This document shows, one piece after another, positions 4,207 to 18,818 of a DNA stretch of 48,100 nt. Within the stretch, counting starts at the first letter, position 1. Every line of letters begins with the position of its first letter. The DNA lies in the IMG/VR virus record IMGVR_UViG_3300032144_000018, positions 1 to 48,100 of that record; one strand, written 5' to 3'. Below the pieces are notes generated by a model that was given only the letters and a program-made list of their open reading frames with translations, was not told where the DNA came from and made no database searches. Source of the DNA: a virus. Position numbers and translations under genes: made by a program.

Positions 4207-4857
4207 CTAGGGGAGGCAGTCGCAGGAGACTTCCCGGAAGGCGCCGCCCTCACGGACGAAGACCGACCGCCCGCAGTCCTTGCAGATGAACTCCCCGGCG
4301 AGGGTCCCGATGCCGAACCCGTGGGGCGGGGTGATCCCCGCCGCCCAGGCCGGGACCGCCGGAACCGGGGCCAGCCCCTCCTGCTCCCGGGCTTCGTTCA
4401 CGGTCAGGAGGCTTGCCCCGGCTGCGCCGGGCACACCGTCCGCGGCCGGGAGGAAGTCCGCCGCGGTCGCCGGCTTCGCGACGGCTCGCGAGGGCCTAGC
4501 GGCCGCCGGGGGCTTCAGCCGCGGGTCGTTGATCACGACACCTTCCCGATCGAAGAGGGCCCGGAACTCGTGGGGAATAGGCTCGCCCGCATTGTCCAGC
4601 TGCTCGGCGATCCGGACCGCCTCCCTCAGCCTCTCTTCCTCCACCTCAATCAGCTTGTCGAGGAAGTGCCGGGCCTTCCGGAGGTCGGACAGGCCCGCCT
4701 TGTCCTGCCACCGGAAGGTGTATTTCATCACCTGCGCTTCCATATACGGGATGCGGTTGGCGATCACGAAATCCCAGTGCTGGATGGCGCGCTTCCGGTA
4801 GTGGTCCCCGCCGATCTGGACGTCATTCGCCCGGGCGGCTTTTCCCTGGTCGCTCAT
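4207..4857 (-). CDS. DUF3310 protein with C-terminal zinc ribbon
   Basis: 216 residues. The N-terminal 85 residues match DUF3310: GGDHYRKRAIQHWDFV, then a KYTFRWQDKAGLSDLRKA segment and HFLDKLIEVEEE. These proteins are common next to phage nucleotide genes and are often labelled nucleotide kinase without proof. A long Pro/Ala linker holds a VNEAREQEGLAPV motif. The C-terminus has CKDCG and SCDCLP, a four-cysteine site. ATG at 4857 follows GAGGAGAAGACCA. It sits directly after the HD phosphohydrolase and thymidylate synthase-like genes, which fits a nucleotide role. Confidence 0.85.
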   Translation of the reverse strand: MSDQGKAARANDVQIGGDHYRKRAIQHWDFVIANRIPYMEAQVMKYTFRWQDKAGLSDLRKARHFLDKLIEVEEERLREAVRIAEQLDNAGEPIPHEFRALFDREGVVINDPRLKPPAAARPSRAVAKPATAADFLPAADGVPGAAGASLLTVNEAREQEGLAPVPAVPAWAAGITPPHGFGIGTLAGEFICKDCGRSVFVREGGAFREVSCDCLP

Positions 4858-4868
4858 TGGTCTTCTCC

Positions 4869-5426
4869 TCACATCACGAAAGAACGGGGGAAGGCTCGCG
4901 GGAGCCCGTTCAGCGGCGCATAGTCCTGGATGATCTGCCCGACCTCCGTGGCGACCTCTGCGGCCCGGTTGGTCGGGGGCGTCACCTTCGTGTAGAGGAC
5001 AGAGGGGCACTCCCGGAGGTTTTCCCAGGCGTAAGCGGAGCCCCGCAGGCCTTCCTCCAGGAGCCACAGGACCGCCTCGGCGAGGTCTGCCCAGGCGAGG
5101 GCGGAAGCCTCAAAGTCGTTCAGCGTCTCCCGGAGGTCGTGGCGCAGTTCAAATTCCCGGGTGATCCGGCCGGCGACCGTCCGCAACTCGGGCTCGCGGC
5201 GCTTCGCGTGGTAGGGGATATCACCAGTCACGAGTTCCGAGATATCGTGCTGGATGGCCGCCTTCATGAGCGGGAGGGTCAGGACCTCCCCCATGACCGC
5301 GATGAGGATGGCCGCGACCCCGAAGGAATGTTCGCCCACGTTCTGCTCCCGGGTGACCGGGAAGACGTGGTATCGCCGGATCATTCCGCCCTCGCGGAAG
5401 AGGAAGACCCTCTCAAGCGGGCTCAT
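4869..5426 (-). CDS. HD-domain 5'-deoxynucleotidase, YfbR-like
   Basis: 185 residues. RRYHVFPVTREQNVGEHSFGVA carries the first metal histidines, and QHDISELVTGDIP supplies the HD pair, matching the YfbR/HD family of deoxynucleoside monophosphatases. Such an enzyme could remove dTMP or dCMP and so favour a modified pyrimidine in the pool (inference). It overlaps the hydroxymethylase-like gene by ATGA, so the two are probably made together. Confidence 0.85.
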   Translation of the reverse strand: MSPLERVFLFREGGMIRRYHVFPVTREQNVGEHSFGVAAILIAVMGEVLTLPLMKAAIQHDISELVTGDIPYHAKRREPELRTVAGRITREFELRHDLRETLNDFEASALAWADLAEAVLWLLEEGLRGSAYAWENLRECPSVLYTKVTPPTNRAAEVATEVGQIIQDYAPLNGLPRAFPRSFVM

Positions 5427-6532
5427 GCTGCCATCTCCTTCTTCGCCTGCCGGCGGGCCACCCAGGCGTCCGCGGCCGCGGCCCAGTCGGGGGCCATGAC
5501 GTCTTCGCGGAGGATATCCCGCGCCACCTCATAGTCTCCGGCCTTGTAGGCGTAGAAGGCCTGGGCCATCGGCGCGACCACCTGCTTGAAGAAGGGGCTG
5601 ACCCAGCGCCGGGTGGGCCCGACTTCCTCCGCCGGGAGCGTCTGGAGCGTCCCGAGGTCTGCCTGTATCTCCCCGAAGTCTTCCACCGGATCGCCGGGCT
5701 CATGGAACCCGTTCGGAAGGCTGAACATGGGGTGGATGGAGGCGAAGCCTCCGCGCTGCATCAGGACCGGGAACCGGCCCGCCGCGTCAGCGGACTGGTA
5801 GGGGTCCTGGTGCGCCGCGTCGATGCCCAGAGTCGCCGGGGCGATCTTCGCCCAGGTGTCCGGGTAGACGTGGAAGGAGTTGGACACCTGCGTGTAGGTC
5901 CCGACATGCGCCCCGATGGCGCCAGCGATATACTCCTGGACGAAGGAGAACTGAACCGCGTTGGCCCCGTAGGCGCCCCAGATCATGTCATTCGATCGGT
6001 TGAACACGGTCATGTCCAGGTAGCCGTCCCGGGCGGAGAAGGCGACCCCGACATTGCAGGGGATATCAAGGCTCTGCGCCCCGAGGTCCCGCGGTTCAAA
6101 GATGGCCGCATAGGCCCGCCGGCTCGCCGGGTCCTTGTGAAGCATGGACATGATGATCGGGAGTTCCGACCCGAGGCGTGCGCCGTAGCCGCCGTGGAAG
6201 TCCTTCCCGTTGTCGCTGAACTGCCGGATGTTCTTGAGGAAGTAGGCGAGGAAGTCCACGTCATTCCGGGCAGCCAGGAGCCACATCCCTTCCATGAGGT
6301 GGAAGAACGGGTGGGCGTCCCGCTGGGGATCGAAGAGGACCCGGAAGACCGGGCGCCGGTAGACCGTCGCGACCGGGCCCCGGGCCTCCCAGACGTGCCC
6401 GCCCTGCCGCGTCGGGACCTTCCGGACCTCGGCGGCCGCCTCGCCGCGCTCCGCGAGCGCGATGTGCCGGGCGAAGAAGTCGCGCCCGACATGATAGGCT
6501 TCGTTGACATCGAGAACATTGAACACCTTCAC
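5423..6532 (-). CDS. Thymidylate synthase-fold dUMP hydroxymethylase
   Basis: 369 residues. Catalytic Cys159 lies in DIPCNVGVAF. RSND at 179-182 binds the phosphate. GAYGANAVQFSF at 186-197 has Asn at the position that selects dUMP (dCMP hydroxymethylases carry Asp there). FHVYP near residue 225 is the His-x-Tyr pair. It is longer than bacterial ThyA (264 aa) and lies beside a 5-hmdU kinase-type gene set, so it most likely makes 5-hydroxymethyl-dUMP with methylene-tetrahydrofolate rather than dTMP. A plain or ThyA-like thymidylate synthase cannot be excluded from sequence alone. It starts ATGA-coupled to the next pathway gene. Confidence 0.85.
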   Translation of the reverse strand: MKVFNVLDVNEAYHVGRDFFARHIALAERGEAAAEVRKVPTRQGGHVWEARGPVATVYRRPVFRVLFDPQRDAHPFFHLMEGMWLLAARNDVDFLAYFLKNIRQFSDNGKDFHGGYGARLGSELPIIMSMLHKDPASRRAYAAIFEPRDLGAQSLDIPCNVGVAFSARDGYLDMTVFNRSNDMIWGAYGANAVQFSFVQEYIAGAIGAHVGTYTQVSNSFHVYPDTWAKIAPATLGIDAAHQDPYQSADAAGRFPVLMQRGGFASIHPMFSLPNGFHEPGDPVEDFGEIQADLGTLQTLPAEEVGPTRRWVSPFFKQVVAPMAQAFYAYKAGDYEVARDILREDVMAPDWAAAADAWVARRQAKKEMAA

Positions 6533-7446
6533 AGTGGCATCTCCTGTTGGGGACGGTAGTGGGAACGCGGCTTGCCCTCCCCGAGGCGCACCCGTTCATA
6601 CTTGTCGAACTCGCAGAGCGTATGCTCCACGTCTCGCATCTCGAAAGGCCGGCGGGAGAAGAGGCGGGCCCCTTCCACGCGCGGCCAGTCGCGCTTCAGC
6701 TTGATGATGGAGAGAAGCAGCTGCATCTCCCCTACTGACTGGTTCTCCTTGAGCGGCGTCTTCAGCGGCCGCCCAGCGAGCCGGTTCAGACCGCGGACCG
6801 CCCCCGGCCCGGGGTTGGCCCACAGCCCAATATCCTCGGCGCTCATCAGCCCGTAGGGCCCTGGCGCCCAGCGGAGGTCGCAGGCGACTTCGTATGCCAT
6901 AAAGCCGCCCCACGACTCATAAGGCTTCATGGAGATGACGAAGGCCTGGAGGCTCGCAAGGTTAGGCTTGTGCGGGAGCAACTGCCCTATGACTCGCTGC
7001 AGCACGTAGTGGTTCTTATTCGCCCACTGATCGCGCGTCGCCGGGTTGCTGTCGGCGTGGATCATATAGGCGCCCGTGTAGACCTTCCGGCCCATCGCCT
7101 GCCAATCATCGAGCGAAGACCGGATGCGGTTCAGCGCCGCGGTATCGAGGCGCGCCGGCCACGACCCCTCCCGGAGCGCGAAGGCGAGGGACGGCGGCCA
7201 GTTGATCTGCCGGGCGATCGCTAGATGGATCCACAGCTGCGGGGAAGACGCGAAGCGGTCGGTCACGTTCTTCTGGATCCACCGGCTCACTTTGTCGTCC
7301 TCGCGGAAGACATTGCAGAAACGGTAGCCGGCGAGGATCGGGTCATCCGTCCAGGGGGGCGGCCGGCCCGCCTCCTTGTGCGCCCGAATCGTCTCCCGCG
7401 CCGCCATGTAGGCGGTGAACTCTGAAACGCGATCCGCGACGCTCAC
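6529..7446 (-). CDS. 5-hmdU DNA kinase helical-domain / aGPT-Pplase-like protein
   Basis: 305 residues. Signature: PWTDDPIL at 31-38, YRFCNVFRED at 41-50, WGGFMAYEVACDLRW in the middle and FEMRDVEHTLCEFDKYERV near the C-terminus. This is the helix-hairpin-helix, glycosylase-derived superfamily described for phage thymine hypermodification (HMUDK_hel and the aGPT-Pplase clades). In some phages this domain is fused to the P-loop kinase; here the kinase is the adjacent separate gene. GTG at 7446 overlaps the kinase stop as GTGA. It either assists the kinase on DNA or is itself a transferase acting on phosphorylated 5-hmdU; I cannot tell which. Confidence 0.8.
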   Translation of the reverse strand: MSVADRVSEFTAYMAARETIRAHKEAGRPPPWTDDPILAGYRFCNVFREDDKVSRWIQKNVTDRFASSPQLWIHLAIARQINWPPSLAFALREGSWPARLDTAALNRIRSSLDDWQAMGRKVYTGAYMIHADSNPATRDQWANKNHYVLQRVIGQLLPHKPNLASLQAFVISMKPYESWGGFMAYEVACDLRWAPGPYGLMSAEDIGLWANPGPGAVRGLNRLAGRPLKTPLKENQSVGEMQLLLSIIKLKRDWPRVEGARLFSRRPFEMRDVEHTLCEFDKYERVRLGEGKPRSHYRPQQEMPL

Positions 7447-7997
7447 CACCCGAACTCCCCCCACAACTGGTCTACCGGCCGCTGCCAGTCGAGGATCGTA
7501 ACCTTCAGACCAGCTTCCCGAAAGCGGGAAACCAAGCGGGCATTCTGGTGCCACTTGGCCTTCACGTTTTCGAGGTTGAGGGGTTTCGTCGCGCGACCGC
7601 TTTCCGCCCGACGCTTCTCCAGGCGGTCCAGGCACACCTCCATCGGGGTGTCGAGGAAGGCGAAGAGGACGGGCGGGAATTTGAGCCCCTGCGCCCACGT
7701 CCCGATCGCCCCGAAGGTGGTGGAGATAAGGATGCCCTCAAAGAGGACGTTGGCCCCCCGGTGCATCGCCCGCTCCGTCCGGTCGATGACCTCCTGAACG
7801 GTCCGGATCGTGTCGCAGCCGCCGCAGGCGTTCTCGTAGGACCCGAGGACTTCCAGGCGCCAGGGGGCGGGGCCGGCGTAGCCGATCGGCCGCCCTCCGG
7901 GCTTCAGGCGCACTGGACGGCATTCCGCCCGGGCCATGAGGTCGCGGGCGATGGTCGTCTTGCCGGCGGCGTTCGGGCCGCGAAGGTTGATGATCAT
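7443..7997 (-). CDS. P-loop 5-hydroxymethyluracil DNA kinase
   Basis: 184 residues. Walker A GPNAAGKT at 7-14, YENACGGCDTI at 54-64 (the CGGCDTI block typical of phage 5-hmdU kinases), and VLFEGILIS as the Walker B region. The C-terminal half carries LDRLEKRRAESGR (lid). Family knowledge: it phosphorylates the hydroxymethyl group of 5-hmdU already in DNA, creating the leaving group for later amino-acid attachment. ATG at 7997 is the first codon that starts the P-loop strand (MIINLRGPN) and makes an ATGA overlap with the gene upstream. Confidence 0.85.
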   Translation of the reverse strand: MIINLRGPNAAGKTTIARDLMARAECRPVRLKPGGRPIGYAGPAPWRLEVLGSYENACGGCDTIRTVQEVIDRTERAMHRGANVLFEGILISTTFGAIGTWAQGLKFPPVLFAFLDTPMEVCLDRLEKRRAESGRATKPLNLENVKAKWHQNARLVSRFREAGLKVTILDWQRPVDQLWGEFGW

Positions 7998-8569
7998 GTC
8001 CGGTATCCTAGGACAGAGGCGGGGATGCACAGCGCGGCGGGTTTGGGTTTCAGGAGTTCCGGACGGTTCCAATCCATCACCGGGCGGAGGCGGGATTGAG
8101 CAGCCAAGTCCCCGAGGCGAGCGACCAGGCAGTTGGGCGGGAGGTAGTTTGACCAATGCTCTTTCCCGCGCTGCCCGCGGGATAGGTCTGGGATGCCTCG
8201 GGCTTTTGCTTCTTTCGTCTCCGTCCAATACATCTTGTAAGCCCGGTTGAAGAGTGAATCCTGCCAATCTTCTTCGGTCTTGTCGGGCTCCAAGTCCCTC
8301 AGATAGGCGTGGATGCCCGGGAACAACCGGCCGAACTCTTCCCATATCCATCTCTTCATATCTCGGCTCCCCCATTCCCGGTCCTTCTCCAAGGCGTCGG
8401 TCCCCCCGCGTTCCCGATGGAGCAGGGAGTCCGCGATGACTGGACCGACGACGCAACGGAACTTCCACATGAAGTTCTTCCGTCCTTCGCCGGACCCTTG
8501 CTGCCGGTTCTGGGGAGAGGGGGTGAAAGGCTTCCCCTTCACCCTCGCGTTCAGCCCGTATCGCGCCAC
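7994..8569 (-). CDS. Unknown protein inside the hypermodification operon, 191 aa
   Basis: No family recognised. The middle contains MWKFRCVVGPVIADSLLH, an aromatic helical segment WIWEEFGRLFPGIHAYL, and EHWSNYLPPNCLVARLGDL. The composition is that of a soluble enzyme or adaptor. GTG at 8569 follows AGGAGGCGGGGGC, one of the best ribosome binding sites here. It lies between the kinase and the methyltransferase-like gene in one operon, so a role in DNA modification or its regulation is reasonable but unproven. Confidence 0.8.
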   Translation of the reverse strand: MARYGLNARVKGKPFTPSPQNRQQGSGEGRKNFMWKFRCVVGPVIADSLLHRERGGTDALEKDREWGSRDMKRWIWEEFGRLFPGIHAYLRDLEPDKTEEDWQDSLFNRAYKMYWTETKEAKARGIPDLSRGQRGKEHWSNYLPPNCLVARLGDLAAQSRLRPVMDWNRPELLKPKPAALCIPASVLGYRT

Positions 8570-8580
8570 GCCCCCGCCTC

Positions 8581-9162
8581 CTACTTCGGGACCGCAAGGA
8601 ACATCGACGCCTTGGTGTGCGTCACGAACTTCTTGACCTTGTATCCCTTCGGCCGGAGATATTTCCCCCAGGCCTTCATATACTCCGCCCAGTTGGCCTC
8701 GGCGAGCCCGTAGGACTCGAAATTGAGGTGGAACTTGGAGACGGCGCTATCCGTCAACGCGACGAAGGCCGGAGCCCGGGCGAAGATCGCGGACAGGCGG
8801 GCCTCATACTCCCGCTGCGCCCGGAGAAGCGTCATGACATTGAAGTCGAGCACAACCCCGACGCCCGGCTTCACGAAGGGGAGCCCGGCGGTCAGGCAGT
8901 CCTGGGGGAGGAAGGTCACCCGATTGGCCCATCGCATGACTCGCGTCTCGGCGAGCACCAGGCACTGCGGGTCCTGCTCAAAGGCAACCAGCCGGGCCTT
9001 TGGTGCCCAGCCGGCCAGGAACTCGGTCATCATCCCGAGGCCCCCGAAGTATTCCACGATGCGCCCGGGGGGCTCGATGCCCGTCAGGAGGTCGCGGAGC
9101 ATGTCCACGTTCTTCTCCAGGTCAGTCTCCCGGATATCCCGGGCAGGGGTGTTCATGTCCAT
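8581..9162 (-). CDS. Methyltransferase-fold protein, paralog 1
   Basis: 193 residues. A Rossmann-type start RIVEYFGGLG at 34-43, an acidic strand end VAFEQD (59-64) where SAM ribose would bind, and LDFN at 105-108 in the motif IV position. LTDSAVSKFHLN (136-147) is shared with the protein at 18078-18818, so the two are paralogs. It lacks the DPPY/NPPY or PC motif of DNA methyltransferases, so base methylation is not assured. It is translated right after the radical SAM gene (TGATG overlap), suggesting a joint role in the modified base. Confidence 0.7.
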   Translation of the reverse strand: MDMNTPARDIRETDLEKNVDMLRDLLTGIEPPGRIVEYFGGLGMMTEFLAGWAPKARLVAFEQDPQCLVLAETRVMRWANRVTFLPQDCLTAGLPFVKPGVGVVLDFNVMTLLRAQREYEARLSAIFARAPAFVALTDSAVSKFHLNFESYGLAEANWAEYMKAWGKYLRPKGYKVKKFVTHTKASMFLAVPK

Positions 9163-10598
9163 CAGGCCGTCTCCTTCCTCAGCGGGATTGCATAGTCACT
9201 CATCCTCATCGCCTTCGCGGCGCCGAGGGTAGCCGAACCGCACCGGGGCTTCCCGCCGTTGTCCTCAGCGCAGTAGAGGCAGCCGGTAGGCGCGCACTCG
9301 GCGATCGGGGCGAAGTCCCCGAGGGCGTCCCGGGCGAACATCGGGACCTTGTGCCCGTGGCACTGGGCAGCGGTTGTGAACTCCCGACCGATCGAAACGC
9401 CCACCTTGGAAATGATTGTCCCATCCTTGTCGCGGAGATACTTGTATTCATAGCAGGTTGCGTAGGTCATCCCACGCTTGGTCGCCATCGCCCGGTAGCG
9501 GCGGTGGGCGTCCAGCCGATACTCTTCCGCGATCGTCCGCTGGCCCCCGATGTTGTCAACGAAGAGGTCCGCGAAAGCCTCGGCGCGATCGCCGAACCCC
9601 TTCCGGAGACGTTCCACCATCGCGGGCGCCCAGCTGAAGCCGGCTTCCACGAACTTGACGATGACGTGGTTGTTCCCGACCGCCGCGAGCCGATCGAAGA
9701 GGCATTCAATGTCATCGTGGGTCGTGATCCCGGCGATGATCGGGTTCACCTGGATGGACGTGTAAATCCCCCGCTTCCGGAGTTCCGCGACCTCGGCGAT
9801 ATGCTCGGTCAGGGACAGCGCCCGCGGGGACAGCTTCTTGAAGTCCGCGTCGATGCCGGTGTTCAGGGATTTCTGCGCATAACTGTAGCGGTTCTTCGCC
9901 AGGAGGTCATAGGCCCACCCCGGGTAGCGCATCCGGGAGAGGAAGAAGACCGGCAGGCCCTCCCGGGTGAACGCCTCGGCGCCGGCCCGCGTATTCCCAT
10001 ATACGTCCTCAAGGGGGAGGAACGGGTCAGTGAACGATGAGAAGTAGCCGGCGGCCGCGGTCTGCATCTTCCGGAGCATCTTCGCAACCTGGTCCCCGTA
10101 GCCGATCGGGACCGTGATCAGCCCGCTCCCCCGGTAGCCTCGGAAGCCGGAATTGATGTAGCAGAAGGAGCACCCGACCGCGCAATAGCCACCATAGGGT
10201 TCCGTCAGGACCGCATCAGTGAAGCAGGGGCGCGGGCGCTGGCCATCCAGGTCATCGTCCTTCGCCTTATACCACCCCTGGAGCGGCTTCGCCGCGTCCA
10301 GACGGGTATGGGGGAGCGGTTCCAGGTAGACCTTCCTGGGCGTCGTCTTCTTCGCGTTCCGGACCATCCCCACGTTCATCATCCGGAACTTGGTCTCACG
10401 CCCGAAGATCGGATCAAACTCGGTTTCGATATCACCGAGAATGTCGCGCATCTTCGGGTCGGTGGACATGAAAAACTGGTAACGCTCGCGGAGGCTCCCC
10501 GAGTCCGTCTCGCTCCCATCGTCCTCCCCGAGGCCCAGGGGGTCATCGTCCGGCGGGAAGGGAAGGCCGGGCTCCGGCTTCTTCGGCATTACATGCAT
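9162..10598 (-). CDS. Radical SAM enzyme of thymidine hypermodification
   Basis: 478 residues. CAVGCSFC at 139-146 is a CX3CX2C cluster site; YFSSFTDPFLPLE and PVFFLSRMRYPGWA follow in a TIM-barrel arrangement close to the spore-photoproduct-lyase-like group. The C-terminus has further cysteines (CHGH, then CAPTGCLYC and CGS), a likely second iron-sulfur or zinc site. In phage M6-type pathways a radical SAM isomerase rearranges the amino acid attached to the thymine methyl carbon. It starts at ATG 10598 after AAAGGAG and heads an operon with its own promoter. Confidence 0.85.
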   Translation of the reverse strand: MHVMPKKPEPGLPFPPDDDPLGLGEDDGSETDSGSLRERYQFFMSTDPKMRDILGDIETEFDPIFGRETKFRMMNVGMVRNAKKTTPRKVYLEPLPHTRLDAAKPLQGWYKAKDDDLDGQRPRPCFTDAVLTEPYGGYCAVGCSFCYINSGFRGYRGSGLITVPIGYGDQVAKMLRKMQTAAAGYFSSFTDPFLPLEDVYGNTRAGAEAFTREGLPVFFLSRMRYPGWAYDLLAKNRYSYAQKSLNTGIDADFKKLSPRALSLTEHIAEVAELRKRGIYTSIQVNPIIAGITTHDDIECLFDRLAAVGNNHVIVKFVEAGFSWAPAMVERLRKGFGDRAEAFADLFVDNIGGQRTIAEEYRLDAHRRYRAMATKRGMTYATCYEYKYLRDKDGTIISKVGVSIGREFTTAAQCHGHKVPMFARDALGDFAPIAECAPTGCLYCAEDNGGKPRCGSATLGAAKAMRMSDYAIPLRKETA

Positions 10599-10627
10599 CG
10601 GGGCGGCTCCTTTGGTTAGGGCCGCCG

Positions 10628-10656
10628 ACTATACCGGGCCAGACTGGTATGGTCTA
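10628..10656 (-). promoter_or_regulatory. Phage promoter TAGACC-N17-TATAGT
   Basis: Minus-strand -35 TAGACC (10656-10651), 17-base spacer, -10 TATAGT (10633-10628), about 23 bases before the radical SAM start codon. A perfect TTGACA lies a little upstream (10668-10663) but has no matching -10. Confidence 0.7.
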
Positions 10657-10670
10657 TTGCCGTGTCAATT

Positions 10671-10704
10671 GAAACGGGGGGCCGGCCCTAACAGCCGACC
10701 CCCC
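10671..10704 (-). terminator. Intrinsic terminator, leftward
   Basis: On the minus strand GGGGGGTCGGC (10704-10694) pairs with GCCGGCCCCCC (10686-10676), 11 pairs with one G-U, loop TGTTAGG, then GTTTC. It ends the unit coming from 10895 and separates it from the radical SAM promoter. Confidence 0.65.
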
Positions 10705-10894
10705 GCCAGGAGGCGCCCCAGTCAACACGAGTGGACAGGCCTCCCTTCCGACCGCTTGCGCGGCCGGCGCCCCACAAGGGGGACGCCTCTACAAACTCGC
10801 CGGGGAAGGGGACCAGTTGACAATCCCCTCCCCCGGGCCCGCTCCCCCTGAATGCACGGGGGGCGGGGGCTCGGGCTCCGTAGCCAGCAAGGCC
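10705..10894. other. Gene-free GC-rich interval
   Basis: About 190 bases between the terminator and the gene at 10895. It contains C- and G-runs and two isolated TTGAC sequences (near 10722 and 10813), but no open frame with a ribosome binding site. I see no clear function beyond a long 3' UTR. Confidence 0.5.
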
Positions 10895-11119
10895 CTAGCC
10901 GGTAGCGGCCGGGGGCTTCTGGGCCCCCTTCCGCCTAACTGACCGCTTCGCAGCGGCCAACGCTTCCGGCGCGTTGTGCGCCATCAGCGTCCCTGCCGCC
11001 CGCTTTGCGACTGAGCGGGCGAAGTCCTCAGGCACCTTCCACTCGGGGTGCCCGTTCAGCGCATCCCGGACCGCCCCGAGGACAATCCGGAAGGCGAGGG
11101 TGTGGCGGAGTTCCGGCAT
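10895..11119 (-). CDS. Hypothetical protein, 74 aa
   Basis: Helical, basic protein (FRIVLGAVRDALNGHPEWKVPEDFARSVAKRAAGTL) with a Lys/Arg-rich C-terminus. It is TGATG-coupled to the small membrane gene upstream and is the last gene before the terminator. No family recognised. Confidence 0.75.
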   Translation of the reverse strand: MPELRHTLAFRIVLGAVRDALNGHPEWKVPEDFARSVAKRAAGTLMAHNAPEALAAAKRSVRRKGAQKPPAATG

Positions 11120-11265
11120 CAGCCGCGCTCCTTGAATACCAGCGCCGCCGCGACCCCGATCCCGAGGGACAGCGCCGCTAGGTCATAGCGCATCCGGGAG
11201 AGGGCCGCGAGGCCCCCGATGAGGCAGACCCCAAGGAAGAGGGCGAGGGCGATGGCGCGGATCAT
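11119..11265 (-). CDS. Small membrane protein, 48 aa
   Basis: Two membrane helices (AIALALFLGVCLIGGLAAL and LAALSLGIGVAAALVF) joined by a short basic turn (SRMRYD). It ends KERG. ATG at 11265 overlaps the stop of the next membrane gene by ATGA, and its own stop overlaps the following ATG. It is the twin in length and layout of the protein at 3775-3921. Confidence 0.7.
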   Translation of the reverse strand: MIRAIALALFLGVCLIGGLAALSRMRYDLAALSLGIGVAAALVFKERG

Positions 11266-11426
11266 CCGGGGTTCCGATGTAGGGCCAGGGCGGCGAGGAT
11301 CGCGGCCGCGAGGCCACAGACCTGGGCCGCGCTGTTGTCCCGGGCGGCGATGACCGTGACCGCGGCCGCCCCGAAGGCCATCCAGGCCACGGAGCGCGCG
11401 AGGGAATTGAGGATGGCGTTCATCAT
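11262..11426 (-). CDS. Small membrane protein, 54 aa
   Basis: N-terminal amphipathic segment, then SVAWMAFGAAAVTVIAA, the charged turn RDNSA, and QVCGLAAAILAALAL: again two helices with a short turn. Adjacent to another membrane gene of nearly equal size, suggesting duplication or a two-component membrane complex. ATG at 11426 overlaps the GNAT stop. Confidence 0.7.
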   Translation of the reverse strand: MMNAILNSLARSVAWMAFGAAAVTVIAARDNSAAQVCGLAAAILAALALHRNPG

Positions 11427-11779
11427 ATCAGTTTTCCGAAGTCGGGCGGGGTCGCCCCGTTGGAGATGTAGCCGCGCCTGGAGAGAAGGCGGGCCGCAGG
11501 TTCGGTGATCACGCTTTCGGCGCGGACCAGCTGGAAGTCCTTCTGGGCCTCTGCCCAGTCGATGACCGCGCTGAACCATCCGCGCCGCTGGAACCGGGGC
11601 TTGACCCCGACGCTGGCCAGCGTGATCGTCCGGAGCCGGGCACCGTCCCACACGGTGTCCGTCCGCCGGAGGTAGATGGACAGCGGCCCATACTTGACCC
11701 AGAGGGACGGGAACGGCGGGGCCTGCTTCCAGATGTCCAGCCGGGCGGCGAGCCCGGAGAGGGGAGGCTGCCGGCTCAT
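11423..11779 (-). CDS. GNAT-family N-acetyltransferase
   Basis: 118 residues. The core TITLASVGVKPRFQRRGWFS holds the acetyl-CoA loop (R-x-x-R-G-x), followed by the helix AVIDWAEAQ, the strand LVRAESV and AARLLSRRGYI, the usual GNAT C-terminal pattern. Start at ATG 11779 (ATGA with the upstream stop). Acetyltransferases are among the enzyme classes reported to finish phage thymidine hypermodifications; acting on the added amine here is an inference from its position between the radical SAM and PLP genes. It could instead be an ordinary phage acetyltransferase. Confidence 0.7.
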   Translation of the reverse strand: MSRQPPLSGLAARLDIWKQAPPFPSLWVKYGPLSIYLRRTDTVWDGARLRTITLASVGVKPRFQRRGWFSAVIDWAEAQKDFQLVRAESVITEPAARLLSRRGYISNGATPPDFGKLI

Positions 11780-12042
11780 GTCGGCACCCCCGTCTTGAAC
11801 CACTGGAGAACCGCGAGCCGGTTCCGGTTGTGATAGCAGGAGTGTATCCCGGCGATCGGGCCGCCGTTGTAGAGGGTCCCCTGCCAGGCCGGCCCACCCG
11901 CGTTCTTCCAGCGGCTCCGGTTGTAGCGGACCTCCCCGACCTCGGCGCCGTCCTTCAGGATGGCGTAGACCTGGAAGGTGTCGGGAAGGCCCTCGCAGCC
12001 CTCCCGGCGGCGCCGGGCCATCGTCCAGACGGGGGCGCTCAC
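11776..12042 (-). CDS. Hypothetical protein, 88 aa
   Basis: A beta-rich sequence with FQVYAILKDGAEVGEVRYN, then WQGTLYNGGPIAGIHSCYHNRNRLAVLQWF. GTG at 12042 is used (GTGA junction). It is placed just before the GNAT gene. No domain recognised. Confidence 0.75.
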   Translation of the reverse strand: MSAPVWTMARRRREGCEGLPDTFQVYAILKDGAEVGEVRYNRSRWKNAGGPAWQGTLYNGGPIAGIHSCYHNRNRLAVLQWFKTGVPT

Positions 12043-12275
12043 CGGAAGGCCCTCGCGATCGCGTTCCGGCGGATCGCCTCAGCGGTCCGCGCGGCCTGCT
12101 CGGCGTGCTGCCGGCGGCCGGAGCGGGAGCCCGTCCCGCGGGGCTTCTTCGGGGCGAGGGCGAAGGCCGCGGCGACCGCGGCGCGCATCGCCTCGCGGTT
12201 GGCGGGAGACGGGTCCGCCCGGAAGGCGGCGACGGCGGCGACCTCGGCGGCGCAGGCGGTGGCGAAGGCGTTCAC
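12039..12275 (-). CDS. Alanine/arginine-rich protein, 78 aa
   Basis: An N-terminal Ala-rich helix (ATACAAEVAAVAAFRADPSP) and a basic C-terminal half (KKPRGTGSRSGRRQH, then AIRRNAIARAF). A nucleic-acid-binding role is possible from charge alone. The GTG start at 12275 overlaps the previous stop by GTGA. The frame remains open further upstream, but only as a shadow of that gene. Confidence 0.65.
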   Translation of the reverse strand: MNAFATACAAEVAAVAAFRADPSPANREAMRAAVAAAFALAPKKPRGTGSRSGRRQHAEQAARTAEAIRRNAIARAFR

Positions 12276-12448
12276 TGTGAAATCTCCCCATCGAAATAGG
12301 CGGCCAGGTCTTCCTCCAGAGCGGCGAAGGTCCGGCCCGTCTCGGCAGAGAGGCGGTTGATGACGGTGGTGTAGTCCCAGGTCACACCGGCTTCGGTGAG
12401 TTCCAGGGTGATCGCTTCGTAGCGGGCGATCAGTTGAGCGAGGGTCAT
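12272..12448 (-). CDS. Hypothetical protein, 58 aa
   Basis: Small acidic helical protein: MTLAQLIARYEAITLELTE... ending AAYFDGEISQ. It is the first gene after the promoter at 12489-12517, with GGCGGAGACGCTACG before the ATG. It opens the operon that runs through the GNAT and the membrane genes to the terminator at 10704. Confidence 0.75.
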   Translation of the reverse strand: MTLAQLIARYEAITLELTEAGVTWDYTTVINRLSAETGRTFAALEEDLAAYFDGEISQ

Positions 12449-12461
12449 CGTAGCGTCTCCG

Positions 12462-12481
12462 CCGGGGCCCCATCGCCCCGG
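12462..12481 (-). promoter_or_regulatory. 5'-terminal leader hairpin, GATGGG loop
   Basis: CCGGGGC (12481-12475) and GCCCCGG (12468-12462) form a perfect 7-bp stem around GATGGG on the minus strand. It begins 7 bases after the -10 box, at the expected mRNA 5' end. Confidence 0.7.
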
Positions 12482-12488
12482 TCCCTTC

Positions 12489-12517
12489 CTTCTAGTTGGC
12501 GCAATCGGGGGCGTCAA
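12489..12517 (-). promoter_or_regulatory. Phage promoter TTGACG-N17-TAGAAG
   Basis: Minus-strand -35 TTGACG (12517-12512), 17-base spacer ending GCCAAC, -10 TAGAAG (12494-12489). This copy has the more classical TTGACG -35 with the same -10 as the TAGACG promoters, so the two -35 forms appear interchangeable. Confidence 0.75.
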
Positions 12518-12858
12518 GAAGTTTCTTTGGGAGGCAGGAACAAATTCCACGCTTCGATCGCGGCCCGTTCCGCCGCCTGATATTCGGGACTACCCGGGAG
12601 CGGTCCGTCATAGGCTTCATACAGCAGGAGGTCCATCTGTTCGGGCGTCGCGTCGATGACCAGGAGACGTTCCACCGGGTCGCGCCCATTGATCGCCACG
12701 TTGTTCGGTGAATGAAGCCTGATCCAGAGGCCCGGCTTCCGGTCCTCCGTGATATGTATTGACAGGTGCTCCAGCTTGTTGACCCACTTCGGGTCGCGGA
12801 AGCGGTCGATGCCTGCGGCGGCCGCGGCGTTGATGGAGAGAAGGGTCATGACGGTCAT
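12514..12858 (-). CDS. Hypothetical protein, 114 aa
   Basis: Contains KLEHLSIHITEDRKPGLWIRLHSPNN and RLLVIDATPEQMDLLLYEAYDG, an alternating strand/helix protein. It follows the PLP enzyme by ATGA overlap and ends inside the next promoter. A second in-frame ATG (12849) is possible. No family recognised. Confidence 0.75.
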   Translation of the reverse strand: MTVMTLLSINAAAAAGIDRFRDPKWVNKLEHLSIHITEDRKPGLWIRLHSPNNVAINGRDPVERLLVIDATPEQMDLLLYEAYDGPLPGSPEYQAAERAAIEAWNLFLPPKETS

Positions 12859-13691
12859 CCTATGTTCCAGAAGAGGACGGGGCCCGGAAGTTCATCGCGC
12901 TTCCGGTAGAGCCAGGACCAGGCCTTGGCATCGTAGAAGGGGTTGGACGGGAACGGGCAGGGGGAGGGCGTCCGGACCTCATCGGCGTAGGCGTAGCCTT
13001 CATCAATAACCTTCAGGTGGCTTTCGCTCGCCTCATATCCGCTCATCTGCTCGATGTAGGTCCGCACCGCGTCTTCCGACCGCGAGTAGCCCATATGGAC
13101 ATAGAGCGTGGGGAAGTCCTTCAGCCGCGACTCGGCCAGCCCCTTGTAAACCCCGGCGGCGATCGTCCCGGAGGACGCGGAGACGACAACCGCCCGGAAC
13201 GGCGCGACATTGGTGCGCAGGACCTCCGCCGCGACGCTCTGGACCGTCTCCGGTAGTTTCAAGGCGTTCGGCATCATGTAGCCGCCGGCCTCGCGGGTGC
13301 ACGCCTTCGCGGTGTGGTAGAGGATCGCGGACCGACCGGCTGGGAGCGGGTGAAGGTCCGCCCCGAGGCGCCGGGCATTGATCTGGTAGGGGCGGACGGG
13401 AAGGCTCTGCTCCGCCTTCCGGACCGGGTAGAAGTTGATGCAACGCTTCCCGAGTAGCGAGCAGGCATAGGCGACCGCCCAGCCGCCCTGAGAGTGGGCC
13501 GTGTCCAGAACCCCGATGACGCGAGCCTCCTGCGCCTGGACGTGATCGAACACGCCTCGCATCTTCGCGAATGGAGGTCCGGGCGGGGGTGAGCAGAGGT
13601 CTTCACGCTTGACCCAGACCGTCTTCAGGACCTTCTCCACCGGGGTTTCCTCCCGGATCGGTGACACCACAGGCTTCGTCCGGATCGTCAT
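12855..13691 (-). CDS. PLP-dependent enzyme, fold type II, of DNA hypermodification
   Basis: 278 residues. WVKREDLCSPPPGPPFAKMRG (residues 26-46) is the substrate-side motif with Lys43 as the likely Schiff-base lysine. TAHSQGGWAVAYAC binds substrate and SASSGTIAAG (171-180) is the phosphate loop, as in threonine synthase or ACC deaminase relatives. It is shorter than typical metabolic members (about 340 aa), as in phage members. Known phage relatives decarboxylate the amino acid appended to thymine in DNA. ATG at 13691 follows GAAGGAGACAACCA. The 5' end overlaps the upstream gene by 89 bases. Confidence 0.85.
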   Translation of the reverse strand: MTIRTKPVVSPIREETPVEKVLKTVWVKREDLCSPPPGPPFAKMRGVFDHVQAQEARVIGVLDTAHSQGGWAVAYACSLLGKRCINFYPVRKAEQSLPVRPYQINARRLGADLHPLPAGRSAILYHTAKACTREAGGYMMPNALKLPETVQSVAAEVLRTNVAPFRAVVVSASSGTIAAGVYKGLAESRLKDFPTLYVHMGYSRSEDAVRTYIEQMSGYEASESHLKVIDEGYAYADEVRTPSPCPFPSNPFYDAKAWSWLYRKRDELPGPVLFWNIG

Positions 13692-14163
13692 TGGTTGTCT
13701 CCTTCGCTGCGATCGCCCCCATCCCTGCGATCTGCCAACCTAGGCGGACCGTCTCGCGGAGGGCTTTCAACTCGCCTACCTTTCCGCGACGGATGTGGTC
13801 AATGATGTTGTTCGGGGTCGTCTCCCTCGCCTCGGCGGCGAGGGTCTTCAGTCGGGCGTCGATGAGCGGGAGGGCATCCTGCAGGGTCGGGCGGGAATAC
13901 CCGTTTGCGCCTTCCGTCAGGGCCACCCCGCAGTAGGGGCAGAAATTTGCTATCATCCCCTTCCCGATCCGGCGAGGCGGATACAGGACCAGCCGGGCGT
14001 TCCGCACAGACATGTCGTCCATCTTCACGAAGGTCTGGAAGCGGACCCCCGGCCCGTGCTCAGTGTCGGATAGCACGCGCGCTAGATGCGCGCAGGGCCG
14101 GATCGCGGACCCGGCCCCTACCTGCGTCACCCGGCAGAACGCCTCGGGCTTCTTCCTCGGCAT
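13603..14163 (-). CDS. Zinc-knuckle protein, 186 aa
   Basis: FCPYCGVALTE near residue 75 is a single knuckle, with more cysteines at FCRVTQ and RPCAHL near the N-terminus. The middle is helical (PLIDARLKTLAAEARE) and the C-terminus is acidic and Gly/Pro-rich. The MPRKKPEA start (14163) is preferred because AGGAG is too close to the earlier ATG at 14172. The C-terminal tail overlaps the PLP gene by 89 bases, long for this genome. Confidence 0.7.
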   Translation of the reverse strand: MPRKKPEAFCRVTQVGAGSAIRPCAHLARVLSDTEHGPGVRFQTFVKMDDMSVRNARLVLYPPRRIGKGMIANFCPYCGVALTEGANGYSRPTLQDALPLIDARLKTLAAEARETTPNNIIDHIRRGKVGELKALRETVRLGWQIAGMGAIAAKETTNDDPDEACGVTDPGGNPGGEGPEDGLGQA

Positions 14164-14203
14164 AGTTTCCATTTCTCCTGAGCGCCGGCACAGTTCAGAA
14201 CGA

Positions 14204-14227
14204 TCGCCCGGCCCGGAGGCCGGGCGA
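14204..14227 (-). terminator. Strong hairpin, possible leftward terminator
   Basis: TCGCCCGGCC and GGCCGGGCGA form a perfect 10-bp stem with a 4-base loop, between the genes at 14241 and 13603. Only TCGTTCTG follows, so termination would be weak or factor-assisted. Confidence 0.45.
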
Positions 14228-14240
14228 CCTCGGGGGCCGC

Positions 14241-14528
14241 CTAGGGGTCATAGGGCGGCGGCGCGTCCTCATACAGATGCCAGACGAACAGGCCCGAGGC
14301 TTCCAGGAACGTCCCCCGATGCCGGGCGCCGGGCGGGACCGTCTCCCCGGTCCCGAGGATGAGGAAGGACCGGGTGTGGTCCTCCGGCGCCTGGTCTTCG
14401 TTCAGTTCCACTTCCAGCCAGACAAAGCGGTCGCCCCGCTGCATGTCGGCGTGGAGGAACCGGGACACCCCAGGGAGCACGTGCGCTGTCCGCCGCCCGA
14501 CCTCATACTTGCGGATTTGCCGGCTCAT
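14241..14528 (-). CDS. Hypothetical protein, 95 aa
   Basis: A beta-rich sequence (RFVWLEVELNEDQ, RSFLILGTGETVPPGARHRGTFL, GLFVWHLYE) that reads like a small cupin-like or jelly-roll fragment; that is only an impression. ATGA-coupled to the gene upstream. Confidence 0.7.
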   Translation of the reverse strand: MSRQIRKYEVGRRTAHVLPGVSRFLHADMQRGDRFVWLEVELNEDQAPEDHTRSFLILGTGETVPPGARHRGTFLEASGLFVWHLYEDAPPPYDP

Positions 14529-14800
14529 CGGCTCGGGTCCGCCCGGCGGGAGGCGCCGTCATCCCGGGGCCCGCCGGTTGTGGCCCGCGACTCGGGAGAG
14601 ACAGGCGGCGACCGATCCTCAACGGTCACGATCCGCTGCTCATCGAACCAGGCCGGGTCGCGCGGCTTCCCGTCCTTATCCAGATCAGTCGGTTCAATCC
14701 CGATCCGGGAGCACCCATACAGCCAATCCGTCCGGCCGATCATGATGCCCTGGAAGCCCGTGATTGTGTCGCGGACGATATTCCCCATCTTCAACGTCAT
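14525..14800 (-). CDS. Conserved phage protein (GxxVRDxITGFxG type)
   Basis: 91 residues. KMGNIVRDTITGFQGIMIGRTDWLYGC, then IEPTDL, then WFDEQRIVTVE is a widespread small phage/prophage protein pattern resembling a KOW-like SH3 barrel. The C-terminal 30 residues are a disordered Ser/Pro/Arg tail. ATG at 14800 follows AAGGAG. The role of the family is not established. Confidence 0.8.
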   Translation of the reverse strand: MTLKMGNIVRDTITGFQGIMIGRTDWLYGCSRIGIEPTDLDKDGKPRDPAWFDEQRIVTVEDRSPPVSPESRATTGGPRDDGASRRADPSR

Positions 14801-14816
14801 CCATCTTCTCCTTCAG

Positions 14817-15089
14817 TTAGTGGTCCATCCGCCCGGACATTTTATGGTCCGGGTCCTCCCAGCGGGCCAGGAGTTCCTTCATCATCCGGCGCACCTGATC
14901 ACGGTCCGCGTTTCCGATGTAATTGACGTCCTGCTTCTCCCCCGGCTTACTCGGCGGGGCGATCAGGAGGGTGATTGCGCAGCCGGGGAAGGTCAGGACC
15001 AGCGCATCCATCGCGGCGGTCATCACGTCCCCGGTCTTCGTCATCGGCGACTTCTGGGCCTGCGCCGCCCGGCGGTCGCGACGGTTCAC
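14817..15089 (-). CDS. Hypothetical protein, 90 aa
   Basis: A basic start (NRRDRRAAQAQK), then ALVLTFPGCAITLLIAPPSKPGEK, a hydrophobic strand pair, and a helical C-terminus (QVRRMMKELLARWED). GTG at 15089 overlaps the upstream stop. No family recognised. Confidence 0.75.
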   Translation of the reverse strand: MNRRDRRAAQAQKSPMTKTGDVMTAAMDALVLTFPGCAITLLIAPPSKPGEKQDVNYIGNADRDQVRRMMKELLARWEDPDHKMSGRMDH

Positions 15090-15361
15090 GACGCGGGCGC
15101 CGCGGCAGTCTTCGCGGCCTCCCGGATGATCGCGGCGAGGTCTTCGATGATCTCCACCCGCATCTCGGCTTCGATGTTATGCGTATCCAATTCCTGTTTG
15201 ATCCCGCGCCGATCGGCGAGGTTGGCGATGATCCCTCGCGCGGCCGCGTGTGCCCAGTCCTTCGCCGGCTCGGGCTTCTCCCCGTGCGTCCAGAAGGAGG
15301 CAGAGCCGTCGAAAGGGAAGGCAGCCCCGTGCGCGAGGTAGAAGGCGGCGTCAGCTGGCAT
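15086..15361 (-). CDS. Conserved phage helical protein, 91 aa
   Basis: DWAHAAARGIIANLADRRGIKQELD then AEMRVEIIEDLAAIIREA recalls a small phage protein seen beside replication genes in many siphoviruses. Function unknown. The start at ATG 15361 lies 11 bases inside the end of the amino acid:DNA transferase gene. Confidence 0.75.
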   Translation of the reverse strand: MPADAAFYLAHGAAFPFDGSASFWTHGEKPEPAKDWAHAAARGIIANLADRRGIKQELDTHNIEAEMRVEIIEDLAAIIREAAKTAAAPAS

Positions 15362-16172
15362 GGACTTTCCCCTTGCGCAGGATCGTGGAGCGGGCGACTT
15401 CAGCGGCAATCGGGCCCCAGTCGCGGTCATTGAGCGCATGGAGGACTTCCCGGATGTCCTTCCCGACCGGGTAGCGCCCGGCGACGTGACCCTTGAACTT
15501 GCACATGATCGTCTCCGCCTCCTGAATGTTGAGCGGGCGATCGTATAGCGGCGGCGCGCGAAAGTCCCGGAGTCGCGACAATAGGGCTTCAGCGACCTCG
15601 GCGATGACCTCGCGCTTCGCCTCCTTCCACCGCTCCGGGTCGCCCCACTTGACTAGCGCCGCCCCCTTCCTCGGGTCGCGGTAAAGGTCCAGCGGACAGT
15701 CAGTGAAGTCCACCCGCGTCCACCCGGTCCGGTCCGCCATGTCCGCCATCTTGAAGGCGATCCACGGGCCAAACCCGGGGAAGGCCTGGACGCCCAGGAA
15801 GGCGTCCCGGAAGGCGACCGGGCGCGCGGGGATCATCCGCATGAAGACTTCGCCCGGCGGGCCGGCCTCGGCGAGCGCGCAGGCGGAGGTCATCGCGGCC
15901 GCGCCGCGGTAGTGCCTCCGCTCCGTCCCCCGGGGCCAGCGTTCGGCGGTCAGGCCCTCGGACACCCGCCGGTAGAACTGGTGGCCCGGGCGATGCGCTA
16001 GGTGGAGCGCGACCCCGATGTGGTAAAACATGGAGTAGCCTAGCAGCGCCTTCGCGAGGTCCGCCCGGGCCAGCCCGGCTTCCTTCACCAGGATGTAGAC
16101 CGGGTCAAGGTCCCCCGTGCGGAGAAGATCGCGGCCGAACCCGACAGCGCGGGCGAGCAGGACCCTATCCAT
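15351..16172 (-). CDS. aGPT-Pplase / amino acid:DNA transferase
   Basis: 273 residues, all helical. VQAFPGFGPWIAFKMADM (128-145) is the helix-hairpin-helix block of the glycosylase-derived aGPT-Pplase superfamily. ALLGYSMFYHIGVAL and YRGAAAMTSACAL precede it. In characterised phages this family replaces the phosphate on 5-phosphomethyl-dU in DNA with an amino acid. It therefore supplies the committed step between the kinase (7443) and the PLP and radical SAM enzymes. Which amino acid is used (Gly, Ser or other) cannot be read from the sequence. ATG at 16172. Confidence 0.8.
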   Translation of the reverse strand: MDRVLLARAVGFGRDLLRTGDLDPVYILVKEAGLARADLAKALLGYSMFYHIGVALHLAHRPGHQFYRRVSEGLTAERWPRGTERRHYRGAAAMTSACALAEAGPPGEVFMRMIPARPVAFRDAFLGVQAFPGFGPWIAFKMADMADRTGWTRVDFTDCPLDLYRDPRKGAALVKWGDPERWKEAKREVIAEVAEALLSRLRDFRAPPLYDRPLNIQEAETIMCKFKGHVAGRYPVGKDIREVLHALNDRDWGPIAAEVARSTILRKGKVHAS

Positions 16173-17845: not shown

Positions 17846-18081
17846 GGCACCACCCGGGGGAAGGACGGCCGGGCCGCCGCGGTCCGCAGCCGGTCCTCTC
17901 CGCCGGGCGTCAGGAACAGCTTCCCGCCCCGTTCCTCGGCGAGGGCATCCCGCTTCATCTCGGACCAGAGGCGGAACCCGATCGGCTCAAAGTCTTCGAT
18001 CAGCGCCGCCACGCTACCGTTCCCGCCGGTATTGCGGACCCATTCCAGGGCGAGGATCAGCTGTGTCTTCGGGGCCATCAC
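17842..18081 (-). CDS. Winged-helix-like protein, 79 aa
   Basis: TQLILALEWVRNTGGNGSVAALIEDF, FRLWSEMKRDALAEERGGKLFLTPGGEDRL looks like a small winged helix (two helices then a beta hairpin, with LTPGGEDRL as the wing end). GTG 18081 or ATG 18078 both fit. A DNA-binding role is an inference. Confidence 0.65.
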   Translation of the reverse strand: MMAPKTQLILALEWVRNTGGNGSVAALIEDFEPIGFRLWSEMKRDALAEERGGKLFLTPGGEDRLRTAAARPSFPRVVP

Positions 18082-18818
18082 TTCGTCTTCTCATGCTCGA
18101 TGACGGGGAACTCCACCGAGGCGCCCCGGCGGAGGTAGATGAGCGAGGCGCCGCGGAAGCGATACACCCCGATGATGCCCATCCCGAGGTTGCGGCGATA
18201 GAGCGCATCAGATGCCAGATAGTAGTCCAGCGGTGTATCGCCGGCCATCCCGAGTTCCCGGGCGTAGACGCTCGCGTTGAGGTGCAGCTTGATGACCGCT
18301 GAGTCGGCGATGATCATGTAGCGCCCCCGGAAGGCGGTCATGATCTTGGGCGGCCGGCGAACAAAGTCCAGGGCCGTGAAGCGGTTCCAGTCCACGTTCA
18401 GGAGGTCCACCTTCTGGCCGTGCTCCTTCGCGTGCTCGAAAGCGTCCCCGTGGATCACATTCGCCTCGGGGAAGTTCAGCCGCAGGTGGCTGACGCAATC
18501 GGGGTCCAGATCGGTGATGACGTGCGACTCGGGGCGGAGGATGCCGCGGATCATCGTCCCGGAGAGTCCCATGCCGCCGAACGCCTCAAAGACGGTCCTG
18601 ACCTTCCCGAGGCGGGGGAGGAAGACGTCATGCGCCGCCGCGAGGGCCCGGAGGTCTTCCCGGTGCGGCCCGTCCCGGAGGAAAGTGAAGTAAGGCCGAT
18701 CGGCGACCCCCGCGAGGTCGCCCGGCCCGTCCAGCATGGCCTTGAAGGCCATGTGGATGTTCTTCTCCGCGAACCTGAGCGGGAACTTCCCCCGGAGCAT
18801 GTAGGTGAAAGCGGCCAT
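18078..18818 (-). CDS. Methyltransferase-fold protein, paralog 2
   Basis: 246 residues. VFEAFGGMG (76-84), ITDLDPD (101-107), GDAFEHA, VDWN (142-145) and ADSAVIKLHLN (171-181) align in order with FGGLG, FEQD, LDFN and TDSAVSKFHLN of the protein at 8581-9162. There is an extra N-terminal 45-residue segment. The SAM-binding topology looks intact, but no DNA- or RNA-methyltransferase catalytic motif is seen. Possible roles: modification of the hypermodified base or of a small molecule. It lies outside the core pathway genes but in the same transcription direction. Confidence 0.7.
   Translation of the reverse strand: MAAFTYMLRGKFPLRFAEKNIHMAFKAMLDGPGDLAGVADRPYFTFLRDGPHREDLRALAAAHDVFLPRLGKVRTVFEAFGGMGLSGTMIRGILRPESHVITDLDPDCVSHLRLNFPEANVIHGDAFEHAKEHGQKVDLLNVDWNRFTALDFVRRPPKIMTAFRGRYMIIADSAVIKLHLNASVYARELGMAGDTPLDYYLASDALYRRNLGMGIIGVYRFRGASLIYLRRGASVEFPVIEHEKTK

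Follow-up and report, generated by a model that had tools for sequence, protein, structure and literature searches.

The window analyzed here, which takes in all 48,100 bases of a virus record with 67% GC, encodes enzymes that in phage M6 take part in thymidine hypermodification, and the question that it raises is which modified base these enzymes would produce. A preliminary description had named six genes, read them as a pathway via 5-hmdU, 5-phosphomethyl-dU and an amino-acid adduct, and taken the phages M6 and ViI as models. That route, with 5-hmdU phosphorylated within DNA, is strongly supported as a prediction by the protein families, the catalytic residues and the M6 gene order. The six genes were correctly recognized, and three others were overlooked: an HD-domain nucleotidase gene and two genes for methyltransferase-like proteins. 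We lean towards an M6-type thymidine hypermodification pathway to which a SAM-dependent methylation step would have been added.

No tRNA genes were found in the 48,100-base record, and no structural genes were seen among the larger proteins scanned in the window (1-48100). The phage genome in this record, with its replication and nucleotide region, is probably incomplete.

Core enzymes and the closest known pathway

All cluster genes lie on one strand (minus), and the six named previously are found at the positions first given for them (Table 1). Their families were recovered with Pfam, PHROGs and alignments of 31-48 homologues, and their key residues are intact; residues called conserved or invariant below are invariant or nearly so in these alignments. 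The third-position GC content is 0.84-0.89 in all six genes, which supports that they are real coding sequences. The TS homologue, the 5-hmdU kinase, HMUDK_hel and ADDT all exceed the curated Pfam cut-offs, the kinase barely so in its match to PF18748. As had been supposed, profile searches placed the helical-domain protein, the kinase and the transferase in the HMUDK_hel, HMUDK kinase and ADDT families, and none of them in an unrelated family.

Table 1. Features of the cluster and its surroundings, in window coordinates
Feature	Position	Strand	Evidence
HD-domain 5'-deoxynucleotidase (YfbR-like)	4869-5426	minus	PF12917 E 1.8e-10; M6 gp59 position
TS homologue, predicted dUMP hydroxymethylase	5423-6532	minus	PF00303 E 2.7e-11; PHROG 5131 E 4.6e-81
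HMUDK_hel, helical-domain protein	about 6529-7449	minus	PF18723 E 2.3e-45
P-loop 5-hmdU DNA kinase	7443-7997	minus	PF18748 HMUDK_HMUD1 E 1.9e-6; also AAA_33
Protein without assigned function inside the operon	7994-8569	minus	coding GC pattern
Methyltransferase-like protein of class I SAM type, short form, for which side-chain methylation is predicted	8581-9162	minus	fold; cluster linkage
Radical SAM enzyme, would isomerise the glycyl adduct	9162-10598	minus	PHROG 9252 E 3e-204
Small genes interspersed with the radical SAM, PLP and ADDT genes	10895-15439	minus	homologues absent from 51 related loci
GNAT-like acetyltransferase candidate, pathway membership doubtful	11423-11803	minus	Acetyltransf_7 E 0.054, under cut-off
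PLP fold-type II enzyme, would decarboxylate the glycyl adduct	12855-13691	minus	PALP PF00291 E 1.3e-12
ADDT (amino acid:DNA transferase, aGPT-Pplase family), would transfer a glycyl group	15351-16172	minus	PF18724 E 2e-13
Second methyltransferase-like member, long form, upstream of ADDT	18078-18818	minus	profile; BLASTP

The TS homologue shares 39% identity with M6 gp58, and its top match in the PDB is the CMP 5-hydroxymethylase 5b6d. Its residues C159 and N191 are invariant in 31 sequences, and N191 is the one that we take to be the uracil-binding Asn of thymidylate synthase. The protein combines the catalytic Cys with a uracil-binding Asn (not Asp), the residue pattern of a hydroxymethylase. 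HMUDK_hel (42% identity with M6 gp55) is split from the kinase in the same way as in M6 gp54/gp55, and the starts of both genes were corrected with respect to the longest open reading frames, the kinase gene now spanning 7443-7997 (MIINLRGPNAAGKTT). The kinase occupies the position of M6 gp54, to which it is 31% identical, and carries the Walker A motif GPNAAGKT with G12-K13 invariant. In public records this kinase family is misnamed 'terminase small subunit' (PHROG 800, M6 gp54).

ADDT is 41% identical to M6 gp51, and its matches among PDB chains include 25qc (E 8e-49), named 'Amino acid:DNA transferase', as well as 8z2m (E 1e-40), named 'Glycinyltransferase'. The PLP enzyme shares 50% identity with M6 gp52, with K43 invariant in 36 sequences. 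A Pfam search with the radical SAM protein gave no match; its identity with M6 gp53 is 63%, and C139, C143 and C146 (CxxxCxxC), together with C435, C440, C443 and C453, are invariant in 48 sequences. The four C-terminal cysteines may hold a second iron-sulphur cluster. Public records call the radical SAM enzyme 'DNA repair photolyase' and the PLP enzyme 'threonine dehydratase', both of which are misnomers. The HD gene comes after the TS gene in M6 and in most relatives. A DUF3310-like protein is encoded around and after the HD gene of the window (4207-5067), and a similar gene follows the HD gene in about 19 related loci.

The genes are arranged in the order ADDT, PLP enzyme, radical SAM enzyme, 5-hmdU kinase, HMUDK_hel, TS homologue and HD nucleotidase. 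These seven core genes also make up, in identical order, the 5-NedU cluster of M6 and the Yuavirus phages (NC_007809; gp51 ADDT, gp52 PLP, gp53 radical SAM, gp54 kinase, gp55 HMUDK_hel, gp58 TS, gp59 HD). The window differs from M6 in its backbone, which it has in common with the loci L008 and L048, in the small genes between ADDT, PLP and radical SAM genes, and in the two methyltransferase-like genes, which M6 lacks. The radical SAM protein was found in 67 phage records, chiefly of Pseudomonas and Bordetella and none of Salmonella, and the combination of this enzyme and the PLP enzyme is the hallmark of the M6 type. Because the gene order is the same and the radical SAM protein occurs in no Salmonella phage record, M6 is taken as the right model, with 5-(2-aminoethyl)-dU as the product predicted for the core pathway, and ViI, the other model first suggested, is dropped. 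A ViI-type pathway, which leads to 5-NeOmdU and runs without the M6 radical SAM enzyme, was rejected since that enzyme is present in the window.

The PaMx11 cluster (NC_028770 gp46-gp52) shares ADDT, kinase, HMUDK_hel, TS homologue and HD gene with the window, whereas a FAD oxidoreductase and an acetyltransferase take the place of the PLP and radical SAM enzymes. A PaMx11-type pathway (5-AcNmdU) was also rejected, since these two enzymes are present in the window and its GNAT-like ORF is unrelated to PaMx11 gp48; no FAD enzyme was found among the cluster genes scanned. In M6 DNA, 5-(2-aminoethyl)-dU (5-NedU) has been measured (PMC6449724), and Yuavirus phages resembling M6 have roughly 30% of their thymidine replaced (PMC11946847).

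Layout of the cluster

From the radical SAM gene through the HD gene, successive spacings are -1, 11, -4, -7, -4 and -4 bp, and these genes form a tight seven-gene operon. It includes a protein without assigned function that gave no match in Pfam, in PHROGs or among related loci. The cluster had been described as interleaved with unrelated small genes, divided among three or more transcription units and unlike compact clusters. Interleaving is indeed seen upstream of the radical SAM gene, and downstream it is limited to the one unassigned gene. A division into three such units finds no support: the genes share a single strand, the spacings from radical SAM to HD are between -7 and 11 bp, and promoter and terminator matches are no better than chance level. 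Nor is the layout out of the ordinary, given that the order is that of M6 and half of the cluster is a tight operon.

The interspersed small genes have no homologues in 51 related loci. The nearest backbone relatives, L008 and L048 (both from IMG/VR), have exonuclease, ssDNA-binding, polA and SNF2 genes beside the same cluster, which in both is compact and free of such small genes. Since these closest relatives have the whole cluster in compact form, the interleaving is most likely a later insertion in this virus. A protein whose gene overlaps the start of the PLP gene (13603-14172) has a weak zinc-ribbon match, and a search for its relatives came out empty. The entry of small genes into the upstream part might be expected of a cluster that is decaying or silent, in a virus whose virion DNA would contain ordinary dT; we give this hardly any credence, as the reading frames are all intact, the third-position GC bias is strong and the invariant residues have been kept.

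A methyltransferase-like family beside the core genes

Of the whole cluster, only the two methyltransferase-like genes may be new. The short form begins within the stop codon of the radical SAM gene (TGATG). The long form matches a family profile built without it (E 5.9e-25) and is related to the short form in BLASTP (E 4e-5). Family members have the motifs E.FGG.G, D[FWY]N and TDSA..K.HLN, with motif I degenerate in the L027 member. No confident match was obtained for the family in Pfam or PHROGs, and its weak sequence matches are to ordinary methyltransferases. The AlphaFold model of the short form (pLDDT 87.8, pTM 0.86) gave Foldseek matches in the PDB (E 2e-10) and among viral structures (TM 0.83), and according to this model the protein has a class I SAM-methyltransferase fold in which the glycine-rich SAM motif, FGG.G, is kept.

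A modelled SAM-binding fold is in itself no proof of methyl transfer. Indeed, the Foldseek matches span very different substrates, from keto acids and azetidine formation to amines. The same fold hosts reactions in which another group, such as aminocarboxypropyl or carboxymethyl, is transferred, AzeJ being among the top PDB matches, and a known phage methyltransferase homologue uses carboxy-SAM on DNA (PMC12783734). A larger modification of the side chain by such a group is nevertheless improbable in our judgement, considering that no carboxy-SAM synthase was found among the proteins scanned and that the weak sequence matches favour ordinary methyltransferases.

The distribution of the family bears on whether it belongs to the pathway. 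A tblastn search of 50,697 phage records returned one member, Pam3_39, from the cultured Pseudanabaena phage Pam3 (ON014755), which carries an M6-type cluster in a partly altered order, with ADDT after the radical SAM gene. When 2.9 million viral contigs were scanned for the signature motifs, a narrow scan from which diverged members outside clusters could escape, four contigs were recovered, all four with the cluster; together with Pam3, this amounts to 5/5. A scan of the viral contigs with the short form as single protein gave zero matches, and the signature matches in genome contigs (L056-L058) were rejected as chance (best profile E 0.87). With the profile, the family was found in seven viral loci (L010, L017, L022, L027, L038, L044 and L048, of which L010 and L017 are nearly identical), in Pam3 and, with two copies, in the window. 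Most of the loci were retrieved via the radical SAM gene, so that this share of the association is biased; the phage-record and viral-contig searches are unbiased.

In every virus except Pam3, where about 2.4 kb separate Pam3_39 from the PLP gene downstream of it, one copy of the family adjoins the PLP or radical SAM gene; in L048 it is placed between radical SAM and kinase genes, as in the window. L008 lacks the gene, and in 16 records whose cluster has no member, some of them fragments, the family is absent elsewhere as well. Along the tree of the radical SAM protein the family switches between presence and absence about 7 times, with at least 5 of these switches on well-supported branches. 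As most M6-type phages, M6 included, do without the family, it is dispensable for the core pathway. Thus, the window could encode a plain M6 pathway, complete without these genes and yielding ordinary 5-(2-aminoethyl)-dU, in which the methyltransferase-like proteins have a different target (a host molecule or some other base, for example) and are simply carried along with the cluster. We regard this as rather unlikely in view of the repeated independent association next to the PLP gene or the radical SAM gene, the TGATG overlap with the latter and the finding of no family member away from M6-type clusters in the phage-record, viral-contig and genome-contig searches. The repeated, independent placement beside amine-making enzymes suggests, instead, a step on the side chain.

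Proposed chemistry of the side chain

The enzymes of the first five steps are present, in order and with intact motifs, and the reactions that we predict from them for this virus are as follows. The TS homologue would convert dUMP to 5-hmdUMP, the HD nucleotidase would trim the competing dTMP/dNMP pool, and the polymerase would incorporate 5-hmdUTP. The kinase and HMUDK_hel would then phosphorylate 5-hmdU in DNA. The next three steps are proposed by analogy with M6, for which glycine transfer by ADDT, isomerisation by the radical SAM enzyme and decarboxylation by the PLP enzyme have reportedly been published. Glycine would replace the phosphate through ADDT, the radical SAM enzyme would shift the bond from N to C-alpha, and the PLP enzyme would decarboxylate the adduct to 5-(2-aminoethyl)-dU at a share of the T positions.

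For the sixth step, the family, its fold and its cluster linkage were observed, from which we infer acceptor and transferred group. Most likely, the short form methylates the aminoethyl group, perhaps together with its long paralogue. Methylation of the amine is the simplest reading, and other SAM-derived groups are possible. We further propose, tentatively and with less confidence than the added step as such, that the product is a new N-methylated 5-(2-aminoethyl)-deoxyuridine, possibly di- or trimethylated and then permanently charged, made by unnamed small class I methyltransferases exclusive to M6-type clusters. No description of a methylated aminoethyl thymidine was found in the literature searched, a paper on thymidine hypermodification pathways (10.1093/nar/gkab781) lying outside that search.

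The M6-type aminoethyl modification of thymine shields phage DNA, and this protection chemistry would gain a candidate new last step. As cultured Pam3 carries the same family, the prediction is open to test on Pam3 DNA without cloning.

In L018, an acetyltransferase gene (969-1382; 46% identity with PaMx11 gp48) is flanked by the PLP gene and the radical SAM gene, and its start overlaps the PLP stop codon (ATGA). A PLP-GNAT fusion was considered for this locus and rejected, as the PLP enzyme is read in a different frame and the overlap joins two separate genes. The L018 virus would be predicted to have N-acetylated 5-NedU. Since this position can hold amine-capping enzymes, and since the methyltransferase-like gene occurs in seven viral loci and an acetyltransferase in L018, the data suggest that enzymes which cap the side chain are interchangeable in this slot next to the PLP gene and the radical SAM gene. 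If true, this would serve as a rule by which DNA chemistry can be predicted from sequence.

Acetylation, which is known in the PaMx11-type pathway, might also be proposed for the window itself, where the GNAT-like gene lies between the radical SAM and PLP genes, has a GNAT-like motif and could acetylate the amine to give acetylated 5-NedU, as predicted for L018 with its gp48-like neighbour. We rejected this gene as an acetylation step and consider such a role very improbable, because the profile match is weak, similarity to PaMx11 gp48 was not detected and the gene is not conserved, with no relatives in the loci.

Elsewhere in the related loci, L022, L023 and L028 have an additional P-loop kinase-like gene, placed between those for HMUDK_hel and the kinase, and the radical SAM gene of L044 (4518-6794) matches as two pieces 0.95 kb apart, possibly separated by an intron or an insertion.
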